Shown: positions 7,044 through 43,018 of the stretch, in pieces
Position numbering within the stretch: the first letter of the stretch is position 1
How the letters are laid out: every line of letters begins with the position of its first letter
Assembly: GCA_027336365.1 (NCBI GenBank)
Contig: DAHWFY010000001.1
Coordinates: forward strand, 25,338 to 68,481
Length of the DNA: 43,144 nucleotides
Origin: Bacillota bacterium
GTDB lineage: Bacteria > Bacillota > Bacilli > Alicyclobacillales > Alicyclobacillaceae
Reading direction: 5' to 3'
Position numbers and translations under genes: made by a program
The notes under the pieces: model-generated
What the model was told of the DNA's origin: nothing
Database searches by the model: none
What the model saw: only the letters and a program-made list of their open reading frames with translations

Positions 7044-7298
7044 GTGAGCCAAGACGATGGAGATATGGCTGCCGAAATGATGAGGTTGATGCAAGAAAAG
7101 AAAGTGCCTTCTTGGTATGACACGTTAAAAAACGCCCAAGAAATGGACGATGTTCACGTTCACGCCTGCGCTATGATAGCGGATTTGTTTGGGCTGGGTA
7201 AGGAGGAACTGGACCCCATCGTGGACGACATCATGGGTGTGGGCGAATTCATGGACATGGCGGTAGATTCCAATGCCACGTTGTATTTAGGTGAATGA
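7044..7298 (+). CDS. DsrE/DsrF/DrsH-like protein, C-terminal half only
   Basis: The 84-residue product matches from memory the C-terminal half of the DsrE_2 family (PF13686), whose members read like MMKKIMKKKNV...IIACTMSMDVMGI...ELIDGV. Here the corresponding blocks are EMMRLMQEKKV, HACAMIADLFGLGKEEL and VGEFMDMAVDSNATLYL, with the family cysteine kept in HACAM. The first 70-80 residues of a normal family member are absent, and the sequence just upstream is the aspD coding end. The GTG start lies 6 bp after the aspD stop with GGTGAG upstream, so translation is probably coupled. Family members are thought to handle persulfide sulfur or act as peroxiredoxin-like accessory proteins. Whether this short form works is unknown. 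Confidence 0.6.
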   Translation: MSQDDGDMAAEMMRLMQEKKVPSWYDTLKNAQEMDDVHVHACAMIADLFGLGKEELDPIVDDIMGVGEFMDMAVDSNATLYLGE

Positions 7299-7304
7299 AT
7301 AATC

Positions 7305-7353
7305 GATAGCGGCATCCATCAAGATTGTAAATCCACGCAATTGCATTTACTGA
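7305..7353 (+). repeat. 67-nt two-hairpin repeat (family A), partial copy 1
   Basis: This copy keeps the right half of hairpin 1 (AGCGGCA) and all of hairpin 2 (GTAAAT at 7327 pairing with ATTTAC at 7345) and ends in TGA instead of the usual TGG. The left arm of hairpin 1 is lost. It sits in the gap between the DsrE-like gene and the MerR promoter. Confidence 0.75.
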
Positions 7354-7461
7354 ACAAGAATCACAAACATCACTGTAGGTGAATGTAGGTGAATTGGGAA
7401 GGATGTAGAGGACCGGATGAAAGCATGACGGTTCTCTTTATTATCTTTTCAACCCTGTAAT

Positions 7462-15905: not shown

Positions 15906-16079
15906 ATTGCTATTCCATAGCTAATGAATTGTCCGGAAGAAAAATAAATTGTATGAGGTTGTCCGAAACATCCATGGCTTGACGGTCACCACCAGAGATG
16001 AAAATGGCCAAAGGGTCAGAACCAGGCTATTTTCATATAAAAAGGGCCAAAACTCCCCAGCGCATTGCATCATCATTGC

Positions 16080-16127
16080 CCAAAATGCTCCTTCATGGTC
16101 TGAAAACGTACGGCACGAGGCTCATGT
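16080..16127 (+). repeat. dispersed repeat family B, fragment
   Basis: The block AAAATGCTCCTTCA, then GAAAACGTACGGCACG and AGGCTCATG aligns with the left part of the copies at 601 and 21977. The inverted repeat inside the block is decayed here and the right end is absent or unrecognisable. Confidence 0.5.
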
Positions 16128-16146
16128 CGGTTTCAACGTTCTCCAC

Positions 16147-16203
16147 ATGCCGCTGTTAGCAGCACCAGCAGGGAGTGTAAATCCACGTTATTGTATTTAC
16201 TGG
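16147..16203 (+). repeat. family A two-hairpin repeat, copy 2
   Basis: Single copy with hairpin 1 (TGCCGCT, loop GTT, AGCAGCA with one mismatch) and hairpin 2 (GTAAAT/ATTTAC) followed by the conserved CTGG end. It lies just downstream of the family B fragment. Confidence 0.85.
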
Positions 16204-16362
16204 TTAGGATCCGTGCCTGACCTCCATGAAATCACGGGTAGATAGTTTCGATATAGGTGAAAATTGAATATAATTACTCCATTGAATTAGCATTTAAATT
16301 GAATTAGCATTTATTGGAGGGAGAATGTATTGGCAAGTAACCCTGCCTCAGGAGGTCCACGG

Positions 16363-21976: not shown

Positions 21977-22119
21977 CGCTCAAAATGCTCCCTCACGTAC
22001 CAAAAACGTACGGTACGTGGCTCACACCCACCCCCAACCCTCCCCGGTGGGGAGCAGAACCAGAGTGGGGAGAGTGGGCAGACTTCTCGCTCCGTTTGGG
22101 GCTAACCGGACACGCACCT
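21977..22119 (+). repeat. dispersed repeat family B, copy 2
   Basis: The best preserved copy. It has an 8-bp inverted repeat CACGTACC/GGTACGTG (21994-22001, 22012-22019), a second GC hairpin around CTCCCCGGTGGGGAG, and ends in CCGGACACGCACCT. Its last two bases fall in the fabV stop codon, so the element reached exactly to the end of that gene. Confidence 0.6.
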
Positions 22120-31128: not shown

Positions 31129-31592
31129 AGAAACGCACTCCTTGTCACACGATTCAACTGGGACGATGATTTCGGTAGAGGCAGCAGCAATTTGTGCGGG
31201 ACAGGCCATCATGCCGCTACTAGCGGCATCAACAGAGAACGCAAATATACGTGACCGTATTTACTGGCTAGAGACGGACATTCATCAGAAGTGATTGAAA
31301 ATATTTAGATAATTATCGATGTAACTTCAAGAAGTAAACAAAGATTCTGTGCTGATGATTGTTCTAATACAGGGATCATATCATAGATACAATTTTCTGA
31401 ACAGACTCTGTCACATTACTCCTGCTTTTGGGATCGATTCGTGCGTAAAAATCAAGAAAATTATCTGTACACGCCGCACTTATGAAAAACTTCCCCATGC
31501 CAAGGGAGAGTACAAAGGATTTCCCCCTTGGCGGTTACTTATTTTCACGGTTGTATGGCTTCTTCGTGTGTGTCCAACAGCCAACCTGTGGC
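31129..31592. other. intergenic region upstream of acxR
   Basis: AT-rich region with no convincing gene. It carries a family A repeat at 31211-31267, in what should be the acxR leader, and a GCCAAGGG/CCCTTGGC stem at 31499-31532. Confidence 0.6.
31211..31267 (+). repeat. family A two-hairpin repeat, copy 3
   Basis: Full copy with hairpin 1 TGCCGCT, loop ACT, AGCGGCA. Hairpin 2 is weaker (GCAAAT against ATTTAC). It ends in CTGG like the other copies. It lies 82 bp upstream of the acxR start codon. Confidence 0.85.
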
Positions 31593-32223: not shown

Positions 32224-32237
32224 ATTGTATTTACTGG
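32224..32237 (+). repeat. family A repeat, 14-nt right-end fragment
   Basis: ATTGTATTTACTGG followed by ATA is the conserved right end of family A units without the hairpins. It lies just upstream of the PAP2 gene. At this length chance cannot be excluded. Confidence 0.4.
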
Positions 32238-38296: not shown

Positions 38297-38924
38297 AAAA
38301 TTCATCACTCCTGTGTGTTATGACTTGAATTCATTCTCGTATAACATTGGTAGTAACTATATTACCGAAAGTAGTAGCTCAAATGCAAATCTAAATCCCC
38401 ATGCCTCTGCGGAGCACAAGATTATAGTGAAAATAATGGACAGCTACTTTCTCATCAAAAGTTACATTCACACGTCTTGTTTGAACGGTGGACTGGTTTT
38501 TGACAAGTCCTCACAGAGTGTGTGACCAAAGTTCTGAGTGGCACTTCTGACTCGATTGAGGCATTGACGAGGTTCCCAGAAATGAGTAGACTAGTCGGCG
38601 GAACATGAACTCGTATAATGCCAAGAATGTGGCTTGGCAGTTTCTACCGGTCGACCGTGAATCGTCCGACTACGAGGCTGATGTCGATGGTTAAACACAA
38701 CGAGGCAGTTTCCCCATACGTCCTTACGTCTCATCTCAGTAGGATTCATATCAGAATTTCGGGTGGGATTGGCGGACGATAGGAACACTGCTTATTTTCG
38801 TTGATAGGACAACCTGGCACCTCGAGTCGCGACTTCCTTCGCTTTGCAAGGAGTCCCTTCGGGAGCCGGGTTTTGTTGTTTTTGCAAGTTGTGGGTAAGA
38901 ATAGATTGAGGAGGAATGGAGAAG
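38297..38924. other. long intergenic region upstream of NCS1 permease
   Basis: About 630 bases between divergent genes without a convincing ORF. The part from 38800 to 38900 shows a bulged stem (GACTTCCTT with AAGGAGTC), a small CCCTTCGGG hairpin and a T-rich tail (GGGTTTTGTTGTTTTT), about 35 bp before the permease start, which could be an attenuator-like leader. Nothing else is recognised. Confidence 0.5.
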
Positions 38925-40433: not shown

Positions 40434-40470
40434 CCTCTGTTGTGGAGATGAACCTTTCTGCGTTGCCTAT

Positions 40471-40670
40471 CCAGTAAATACAAGTTTGTGGATTTACATT
40501 CCCTGTTGGTGCCGCTATCAGCGGCATGGCGGTCTATCCAGTAAATACAGGTTCGTGGATTTACCTTCCCTGCTGGTGCCGCTATCAGCGGCATGACGGT
40601 CTATCCAGTAAAACAATTGCGTGGATTTACATCCCTTGCTGATGCCGCTCACAGCGGCATGTGGGTCTAT
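40471..40670 (-). repeat. family A array: three tandem 67-nt units
   Basis: Units at 40471-40537 (67 nt), 40538-40604 (67 nt) and 40605-40670 (66 nt) follow one another without spacers. On the minus strand each reads ATAGACCGCC-like, then hairpin 1 (TGCCGCT, 3-nt loop, AGCGGCA), a linker CAGCAGGGAA, and hairpin 2 (GTAAAT, about 12-nt loop, ATTTAC) ending CTGG. The loop bases differ between units (GAT, GAT, GTG in hairpin 1) while the stem bases do not. Confidence 0.95.
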
Positions 40671-40705
40671 TTGCAAAATACTTACCTGCCAAGGCCAAAT
40701 ATCCA

Positions 40706-40751
40706 TGGCAAAAGTCCTCCAATCCGCATGCGGGTCGGAGGACTTTTGCCA
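40706..40751. terminator. 15-bp perfect hairpin between convergent genes
   Basis: TGGCAAAAGTCCTCC (40706-40720) pairs perfectly with 40737-40751; the loop contains CCGCATGCGG, which can fold on itself. It stands between the NCS1 gene and the end of the aminotransferase gene and probably ends both transcripts. No T-run is present on either side. Confidence 0.65.
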
Positions 40752-40792
40752 AGAGGGACTTTTCAACTAAGCCAGAGTGCCTTGATGGTGGT

Positions 40793-41962
40793 TCAAGACA
40801 GAAATTGAGTATATACTTCGGCGAATGTGTCTATGGCTGCCTGAGGGTTGACCGAATGACCCAATTCCTGAAGAGTTTCGCCCATCAAACGTATGGCCTT
40901 GATGAAATCTATGTCTGTAACGTTACCCATGTGGCCGATACGAAAGGCCTTGCCCGCCAATTCAGCCAGGGCGCCTGCCACCACAACACCCTTATGGGCA
41001 AGGGCTTGGCGAAAGGCCATGTCATTCACTCCCGCTGGATAGCGAATGCAGCTCAGGGTGGGTGCGGCGATGGGCTCCTCCGCAAGAGCTCGCATGCCAT
41101 AAGTATGGAGGGCTGCCCGTACTGCCTTACCGAGGGCCTGGTGCCGTTGATAGCGGGCGGGGAGACCCTCTTGAAACACCAATTCGAGTCCCCGGTGGTA
41201 CGCATTCACCATGTTCACTGGCGGTGTTGCAAAATAACGCGCCGGATTGTCCATAATCGGTCGCCAGTTGGCAATGTCCAAGAAATAGGCAGGCACCTGG
41301 TTGCGTGCGGATCGAGCTGCTAGGGCTTGGGGACCAAAGGCAACGATGCCGAGACCGGGGGGAACACCGAGTGCTTTCTGGGAGGCTGTCAGCACAAGAT
41401 CGATTTTGTAATCCGGATGTCCATAGGTTTTTTGCATATCTTCTTCGATAGCTGCCGATGCACACACTCCGTCGAGCAAAAATAGAGCACCTTTTTCTTT
41501 CACCAGGGGCACCAGAGCATCTAGGTTGGCCATCACTCCTGTGGAGGTATCCACATGAGTGACGGTCACAGCCTTGAAGGTTCCCTCAGAAAGGACGTGT
41601 CTGATCTGCTCTAAATCGGCGTGTTGCCCCCAGGGTGCCTGAATTGTTTTCACTTCTATGCCGTAAGCCTGGGCAAGGGGCGTGAAACGGTCACCAAAAT
41701 ACCCATGACTGACCACTAGCAATTTTTCGCCAGGTGCCACGGTGTTGACAATTGCCATTTCCATCGCTAAGGTTCCAGACCCTGCAAAGACGTAAACTTC
41801 ACCATTCGTATTGAATAAGGACTGAGTGTGTTGGAGACTTTCTTTAAAAATGGATACAAAGCGGGGGTCCGTGTGGGCCAGGGTTTCGCTGGCTAGGGCC
41901 TCGTAAATCTCGTCAACCACGGGCGTGGGACCTGGAATTAGTAACAATTCTTTGTTTGGCAA
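40793..41962 (-). CDS. class V aminotransferase (alanine/serine/ureidoglycine-glyoxylate type)
   Basis: The 389-residue PLP enzyme starts LLLIPGPTPV and has FAGSGTLAMEMA, LFLLDGVCASAA (Asp for the PLP nitrogen), the PLP lysine in LTASQKALGVPPG, and FRIGHMGN near the C terminus, all typical of the alanine-glyoxylate/serine-pyruvate/PucG group. It would move an amino group from alanine, serine or ureidoglycine to glyoxylate or pyruvate. The true start is probably TTG 41962, because AAAGGAGG lies 8 nt upstream inside the longer frame that opens at ATG 41992. It is read with the thioesterase gene upstream (79 bp apart). The donor cannot be decided by eye; the adjacent NCS1 permease makes PucG worth testing. 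Confidence 0.87.
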   Translation of the reverse strand: MPNKELLLIPGPTPVVDEIYEALASETLAHTDPRFVSIFKESLQHTQSLFNTNGEVYVFAGSGTLAMEMAIVNTVAPGEKLLVVSHGYFGDRFTPLAQAYGIEVKTIQAPWGQHADLEQIRHVLSEGTFKAVTVTHVDTSTGVMANLDALVPLVKEKGALFLLDGVCASAAIEEDMQKTYGHPDYKIDLVLTASQKALGVPPGLGIVAFGPQALAARSARNQVPAYFLDIANWRPIMDNPARYFATPPVNMVNAYHRGLELVFQEGLPARYQRHQALGKAVRAALHTYGMRALAEEPIAAPTLSCIRYPAGVNDMAFRQALAHKGVVVAGALAELAGKAFRIGHMGNVTDIDFIKAIRLMGETLQELGHSVNPQAAIDTFAEVYTQFLS

Positions 41963-42041
41963 AGAGGACTCCTCCTTTGAGTACGTGTCCATCTTTGCTC
42001 ATTATAGTTCAATGGTCAGGGCTTTGCGTGCATGCTCGCGT

Positions 42042-42599
42042 CTACTCCCAGGGGAAACCGGTTCCGAGGGAACCAATGATGTGGATTTGTTCGGTTCTTC
42101 GTTGCTGCCGATGGGCCATGCGAGTCGCGGCCGACTCATACAACTGTTTTTCCATGGAACTTTGAGGGACAATGCGGGGTACCGCAGTGGGTCTATTCTG
42201 CTCATCCAACGCCACAAAAGTCAAAAAGGCTGTGGTGGTCACCTCTCGTTTTCCGGTCAACAGTTCCTCAGTGGTCACTTTAACAAAGACCTCCATGGAG
42301 GTGCGCCCTGCGAAAGTAACAAATGATTCCAGACAAACGGTGTTGCCCAAACGAACCGGGCGAATAAAGTCAACAGAATCGGTGGAAGCGGTCACCACCG
42401 CACGACGGGCGTGGCGGGCAGCTGAAATGGTGGCCACATCGTCAATATAAGCCATCAATCGCCCTCCGAACATGGTGCCATGATGGTTAGTGTCCGGCGG
42501 CAATACCATGCTCACCTTAATGGCGCGACTTTCGATGGGATGACGCGACTCCACTTCCGTCGCGTGTTCGTCGGCTTGTGTTTGTTTTTCATTAGACAA
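42042..42599 (-). CDS. acyl-CoA thioesterase, YkhA/YciA-type hotdog fold
   Basis: The 185-residue protein is a single hotdog-domain thioesterase: MVLPPDTNHHGTMFGGRLMAYIDDVATISAARHARRAVVTAS contains the conserved GG-x-Mxx-D helix, and VDFIRPVRLGNTVCLESFVT the following strand. It hydrolyses acyl-CoA to free acid and CoA, probably as a hexamer and on a broad range of chains. The TTG start has GGGGAGG 7 nt upstream. A hydrophilic C-terminal tail of about 45 residues (RQQRRTEQIHIIGSLG) is longer than in many relatives. It is the first gene of a two-gene unit with the aminotransferase, although the functional link is not obvious. Confidence 0.9.
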   Translation of the reverse strand: MSNEKQTQADEHATEVESRHPIESRAIKVSMVLPPDTNHHGTMFGGRLMAYIDDVATISAARHARRAVVTASTDSVDFIRPVRLGNTVCLESFVTFAGRTSMEVFVKVTTEELLTGKREVTTTAFLTFVALDEQNRPTAVPRIVPQSSMEKQLYESAATRMAHRQQRRTEQIHIIGSLGTGFPWE

Positions 42600-43018
42600 T
42601 GAAAATCCTCCCCTCGCTCGTAAGTTTATTGCAAGTAGAAAATGGAATCAAGAGTGTGGAGGCGTGCGGGAGGGTGTGGTCATCGTGTGGGGGAGGGCAG
42701 AAAAGCGTGGGGATAGACTCTCATGCCGCTGTTAGCGGCATCAGCAAGGGACGTAAATGCACGTTATTGTATTTACTGGGATAGACCGCCATGCCGCTGA
42801 TAGCGGCACCAGCAGGGAAGGTAAATCCACGTGATTGTATTTACTGGTTAGGAGAGTAGGTTCAGGTCAAGTGCATCTCTTTCCAGTGCAGATAAGCTTT
42901 TCAAACTTGTATAAGTTTCCCCAAGTGGGAACAGGTGAGTTACGTTAAAAAGGCGAACTTTTTCATCGTGGGAAAAGCATGTTTAAAAAAACATGAGCAC
43001 GAGGAAGGAGTTCCACCT
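42600..43018. other. intergenic region with two family A repeats and AT-rich palindromes
   Basis: No gene is seen. After the two repeats come AAACTTGTATAAGTTT (42904-42919), an interrupted GTTTCCC/GGGAAC repeat just behind it, and CATGTTTAAAAAAACATG (42979-42996). These lie upstream of the lipoprotein gene and may be promoter or operator parts. Confidence 0.6.
42713..42847 (+). repeat. family A array: two 67-nt units
   Basis: Units at 42713-42779 and 42781-42847, both 67 nt and separated by one G. They have the same parts as the array at 40471 but in the opposite orientation. Hairpin 1 loops are GTT and GAT. Confidence 0.95.

Follow-up and report, generated by a model that had tools for sequence, protein, structure and literature searches.

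A high-copy 67-nt intergenic repeat of an Alicyclobacillaceae genome, a probable miniature derivative of IS110-family insertion sequences

Copies of the repeat in the window and in the genome

The stretch under study, called the window throughout, comprises 43,144 nucleotides of an Alicyclobacillaceae genome (Bacillota bacterium, assembly GCA_027336365.1, contig DAHWFY010000001.1, positions 25,338 to 68,481 of the forward strand; G000 in the following) and contains an intergenic repeat with a unit of 67 nt, designated family A. With a repeat search and a covariance model eight copies were identified in the window, including one degenerate copy and two head-to-tail arrays, one of three and one of two units (Table 1). 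The pattern CCAGTAAATACAATNNCGTGGATTTAC with up to three mismatches had six matches in the window and none in 100 shuffled sequences, showing that chance does not account for the copies. Contact with a predicted open reading frame (ORF) was restricted to the single copy at 31201, which includes a few bases at the ORF start. A first-pass annotation had placed copies at 40471 (three), 42713 (two), 16147 and 31211, and all of these were verified, the arrays on the plus and the minus strand, respectively, and the single copies as near-full units. At 7305, where a further copy had been listed, the GTAAAT/ATTTAC half is good and the remainder is degenerate, while a fragment listed at 32224 was not significant with the covariance model (13.9 bits, E 0.6).

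Table 1. Positions of the family A copies and of one array junction in the window
Feature	Position	Strand	Remark
Left junction tetranucleotide CTAT of the three-unit array	40467..40470	+	Core TA at 40468-40469; from sequence and junction logic
Array of three, unit 1	40471..40537	+	Top strand runs opposite to the IS110 sense (reverse complement)
Array of three, unit 2	40538..40604	+	
Array of three, unit 3	40605..40670	+	Terminal GGTCTAT, core TA at 40668-40669
Array of two, unit	42713..42779	-	Plus strand begins with ATAGACT, the IS110 left-end type
Array of two, second unit	42781..42847	-	Plus strand terminates with ATTTACTGG, then TTAG, the IS110 right-end type
Single copy, near-full	16141..16206	-	Left-end terminus worn
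Single copy, near-full	31201..31270	-	
Degenerate copy	7263..7356	-	Well preserved in the right-end half alone (7323-7352)

Read in the sense of the IS110-family insertion sequences (IS) treated below, the unit has the form WTAGACCnnCATGCCGC-loop-GCGGCACCAGCAGGGAAnGTAAAT-loop-ATTTACTGG(G)ATAR. The flanks had earlier been described as conserved ATAGACC and CTGG, which was right in kind, the actual forms being WTAGACC and CTGG(G)ATAR, and the description of conserved stems with variable loops was borne out. Both hairpins are preserved with two-sided changes; in G000 alone this concerns 10 of 15 pairs, and 20 double-change cells were counted compared with 2.9 in shuffles, but the alignments were fitted to the structure model, so that these counts lean towards it. 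In a related genus (g20) a single stem was seen as GCCGC/GCGGC, GCTGC/GCAGC and GGCGC/GCGCC. In sliding controls the fraction of paired cells fell from 95% to 30–45%, and the score fell, too. At a shift of +3 the double-change counts came close to those of the true register, and therefore the double-change evidence is supportive, not conclusive. The compensatory changes in both hairpins agree with the selection for structure that had been proposed at first. No Rfam match was obtained for the repeat at the gathering threshold, and thus the impression of a new-looking element could be upheld with respect to named Rfam families.

The assembly of G000, 3.14 Mb in 366 contigs with a completeness of 83%, apparently represents a metagenome-assembled genome. 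Genome-wide, the pattern GTAAATN2-12ATTTAC was found 198 times per strand, compared with a single match for a reversed-pattern control. In a sample of contigs covering 1.21 Mb, 170 units were detected at 143 loci, from which a genome total of roughly 390–440 units, or about 0.9% of the genome, was extrapolated; the contigs that had been sampled regardless of their content yielded about 340 loci and 390 units per genome. A scan of a named-genome collection gave 49 loci, which were mostly chance matches because the pattern was too loose. The claim that the copies lie between genes was supported on this larger scale: 140 of the 143 loci were mainly intergenic according to a simple coding-potential gene call, 16 of them overlapping partially with a predicted gene, in a sequence that is 82% coding. 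About one sixth of the loci are tandems with a period of 67–68 nt. Every genuine tandem in the sampled sequence was head-to-tail, and no inverted pairs, as in bacterial interspersed mosaic elements (BIME), were found among them. Adjacent array units were 86% alike, compared with 83% for random pairs, indicating that the arrays grew mainly by separate insertions. In the sampled contigs the copies were oriented more often against the G-rich (leading) strand (92:50), a bias exceeding that explained by the strand bias of the YTAW motif.

This orientation bias, together with the compensatory changes within one genome and the mainly intergenic location, would also suit an RNA element that is maintained by the cell, e.g. 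as a transcript-end or stability hairpin, and that has spread only secondarily. Such a role is very unlikely to be the explanation, because the copies occur in every intergenic context, divergent promoter regions included, the bursts are patchy between related species, at least two sites are empty in a congener (see below), and counter-selection in genes would yield an intergenic location as well. Taken together, the repeat is a mobile, structured, intergenic and undescribed element that is kept for its structure.

Ends shared with IS110-family elements and the predicted bridge RNA of the parent clade

A covariance model built from the window copies only (R1) had matches in other genera, and in two genomes (G048, G003) these matches were the left ends of IS110 elements, 994–997 bp before a Transposase_20 domain. 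A broader model (R2) was partly trained on IS110 left ends; the link does not depend on R2, since R1 had found them first. With the broader model the same left-end position and a single orientation were found in six further genomes (G062, G063, G022, G018, G053, G034) and, with a broken gene, in G027. An additional match in G048 marks a second left-end copy that follows immediately on the right end of an IS110 element. In G052 the match is situated at the opposite side of a partial gene, and that in G037 was too weak to count. The recombinase protein was assigned to NF033542, IS110 family RNA-guided transposase. The structure thus has a fixed place and orientation in the parent IS, 5′ of the recombinase gene and directly upstream of the predicted bridge RNA.

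The IS boundaries were set by comparing copies, including 18 copies in G062 with differing flanks, which gave TAGAC(C) as the left and ATTTTCAGGATA as the right boundary, the latter being present in G048, G003 and G062. The miniature elements end with ATTTACTGGATA in G000, with ATTTTCTGGGATA or ATTTTCAGGATA in g20, and with ATTTTCAGGATA in G002. The right end is thus identical to that of the IS in miniature copies of g20 (L177) and G002 (L171), and 10/12 in G000. At the G002 locus, tandem copies of the 9-mer CTAGACCGC precede the left end of the miniature element. Both termini match the IS termini, showing that the miniature elements carry both IS ends and little else: the left part, with terminus and first hairpin, corresponds to the IS110 left end and the last approximately 12 nt to the right end. 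The second hairpin pairs GAAAAT or GTAAAT of the left end with ATTTTC or ATTTAC of the right end, and the interior of the parent IS, with its recombinase gene and guide loops, is absent. The miniature form could have originated by a deletion between TTTTTCTGG in the left end and the similar stretch TTTTCAGG in the right end.

The shared sequence would also be found if an independent family, resembling repetitive extragenic palindromic (REP) sequences, served as a landing site for IS110 elements and some IS110 copies carried a captured repeat. A precedent is IS621, which inserts into REP elements (PMC11208160), and at one locus (L118) an IS110 right end is immediately followed by a second copy. 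In the 18 G062 copies, however, the element is held inside the IS and the differing flanks begin exactly at its outer end; moreover, its position and orientation are fixed across many genera, and a terminus like the IS110 right end is present in the miniature elements as well. A landing site is therefore most unlikely.

In the left end of the parent IS, the shared part is followed downstream by a region predicted to fold into two loops, an arrangement as described for IS621 (PMC11208160). A segment of the first loop equals the top strand of the left target, i.e. of the element's own insertion site, as in the guide/flank pairs GCTCAATAG with GTCAATAG, GCCGAATAG with GTCGAATAG, and GCAGGGTAG with GCAGGGTAG. 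For 11 guide types the match between the variable part and the own flank was 0.84 compared with 0.32 after permutation, and none of 20,000 permutations was as good. In IS621, the bottom strand is the pairing partner of the left guides; the guide therefore equals the top strand, with the core included (PMC11208160). The second loop (donor guide) of the parent clade, CAGGATAG or ACGGTAG, is equal to the right-end junction. A model of the bridge RNA (R3) matched 30 of 249 Bacillota genomes, and no Rfam match for the bridge RNA was found at four loci carrying the R3 structure or relatives of it. In IS621 a 22-bp donor suffices when the bridge RNA is provided in trans (PMC11208160), which makes a use of the 67-nt element in trans plausible.

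Insertion at a TA core and proposed mobilisation in trans

Two orthologous sites were found to be empty in the congener Alicyclobacillaceae bacterium I2511 (G001), e.g. CTAT^CTGTGT compared with the occupied site CTAT-CCCAG...GGTCTAT-CTGTGT. The left and right YTAW tetranucleotides are independent of each other (19 of 44 identical, 18.2 expected); a target-site duplication of CTAW was accordingly rejected, and the tetranucleotides are explained by a TA core. In the IS110 sense, the outer base at the right junction tracked the right-end variant of the element itself (p 0.0003), while that at the left junction did not (p 0.75) and differed for copies within a second repeat family, B (p 0.035). 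The results fit an insertion in which a TA dinucleotide is the site of exchange, the outer bases at either end derive from the target, and a longer duplication is not formed. Empty sites and junction statistics thus place the element between short cores, as for an IS110-derived miniature element. The reconstructed target, G-R-W-TA-G-R, resembles the target GAT-TA-GG of the IS110 element in G062. With the sequence GG(G)ATA-R, the right end of each copy resembles the target, which accounts for tandems of the same direction.

Family B is also abundant. It has a length of about 100 nt or more, contains ...CTGCTTGGGTCTGACCGGACCCCTTTCCGGACACGCACT, and is present in the window at about 600-760, 16078-16124 and 21978-22024, at many loci in the series L034-L241, and in more than 50 copies in 1.2 Mb. 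It hosts at least 10 family A insertions, all at one position.

The first-pass annotation had likened the repeat to REP/BIME elements mobilised by IS200/IS605-like transposases or REP-associated tyrosine transposases (RAYT). The repeat would then be a REP/BIME-like element or an IS200/IS605 (Y1, HUH) derivative, moved as single-stranded DNA beside a tetranucleotide. The hairpins, the lack of terminal inverted repeats, a target duplication of at most 2 bp, the insertion beside YTAW and an IS605-type TnpA encoded in G000 would be in accordance with this. Nevertheless, it can hardly be correct. It was already largely refuted by the IS110 identity of the left and right ends, and the hairpins are of the IS110 type as well. 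The ends of the resident IS605 adjoin TTAC, not CTAW, and have different hairpins, and the outer bases at both junctions of the repeat are as expected for exchange within TA. Only three Y1-transposase matches were found in G000, and no association of copies with TnpA/RAYT genes was detected beyond chance: in repeat-rich relatives 1 of 30 Y1 loci (L144) had clear copies within 1.5 kb, and G048 and G018 have the structure without a Y1 gene. IS608 prefers the lagging-strand template, and the strand bias of the repeat is opposite to this preference. The likeness to BIME was abandoned, because all tandems are head-to-tail. One repeat dimer interrupts the tnpB gene of a decayed IS605-like element (L001 1194-1331, G000 C327), the left end of which adjoins TTAC.

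Taken together, the repeat very probably is a non-autonomous miniature of an IS110-family IS of the bridge-RNA type, similar to miniature inverted-repeat transposable elements (MITE) and presumably mobilised in trans. It was observed that both ends resemble those of the IS110 clade and that insertion takes place at a TA core without a longer duplication; a mobilisation by a recombinase and a bridge RNA of the IS110 type is inferred. Both would be made elsewhere and would excise the miniature element as a circle, joined through the right-end/left-end junction CTGG(G)A-TA-GACC. The circle would insert at G-R-W-TA-G-R targets and leave TA on both sides. Each right junction would again be target-like, so that new copies would be added next to existing ones without a change of orientation, building up head-to-tail arrays.

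Several points weigh against this explanation. The likeness of the right ends is based on about 12 nt, and a minimal-donor model leaves the kept hairpins unexplained. Searches of the assembled 83% of G000, including one with R3, and of G024 and G028 yielded neither a cognate bridge RNA nor a close recombinase, and only relics of the partner are present in two genomes: G001 has an IS110 left end with both bridge-RNA loops but without a recombinase gene (L324 1434-1620, G001 C221), and G027 retains a broken IS110 copy. No autonomous element was found between split repeat halves in the sampled G000 sequence. That recombinase and bridge RNA were not found in the same genome lowers the claim of present activity, not that of the origin; possibly the burst took place long ago, or the partner is encoded in the unassembled part of G000. 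It is tempting to speculate, though the idea is somewhat more doubtful than not, that the elements are RNA-guided MITEs that use the bridge RNA and recombinase of another element for excision and targeting, that they have attained high copy numbers on more than one occasion within a single bacterial order, and that their own compensated RNA or DNA hairpins take part, e.g. in recombinase binding or bridge-RNA titration. No IS110-derived miniature element was found in the literature searched, which lay outside subscription papers and ISfinder, and miniature derivatives of the IS110 family seem to be previously undescribed.

Two further observations concern the sequences compared. Stretches that are 98% identical between G000 and G001 were found (L114 versus L219 and L189), while other shared regions are mostly about 75–90% identical, and a recent exchange is possible. 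A purine riboswitch is present at 38591-38692 of the window, upstream of a purine/cytosine-type permease gene.

Comparison with known systems

Tools for bridge-RNA recombination are derived from IS110 elements. If the proposed origin is true, the repeat is a natural gene-less substrate of 67 nt at about 400 copies, and thus a donor need only be tiny and could be supplied in trans. The miniature elements would also be a large natural data set of donor/target pairs, and they raise the question of the role of the conserved hairpins.

Like IS621 and its relatives (PMC11208160), the miniature element has a left terminus with a hairpin, a right-end sequence and a dinucleotide core, it lacks terminal inverted repeats and a long duplication, and the target is read by an RNA in the parent clade. 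Unlike them, it is only 67 nt long, has neither a recombinase gene nor target or donor loops, uses TA instead of CT as the core, and occurs at high copy number and in tandem arrays. With MITEs of other IS families, e.g. MITEPye1 of IS1182 (PMC11578231), it shares the lack of genes, the retention of both ends, the intergenic location and a presumed mobilisation in trans; in contrast to these, it has no terminal inverted repeats, its parent encodes an RNA-guided recombinase, and the exchange takes place at a TA core. Small palindromic intergenic repeats with more than 100 copies are also known as REP sequences and REP doublets forming hairpins (REPIN), which are linked with RAYT (PMC2817692). 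The miniature element differs from them in that there is no RAYT association, inverted pairs are missing, and the ends and the target logic are of the IS110 type. An origin from IS110 elements would thus explain a class of head-to-tail repeats between genes that would otherwise have been classified as REP-like.
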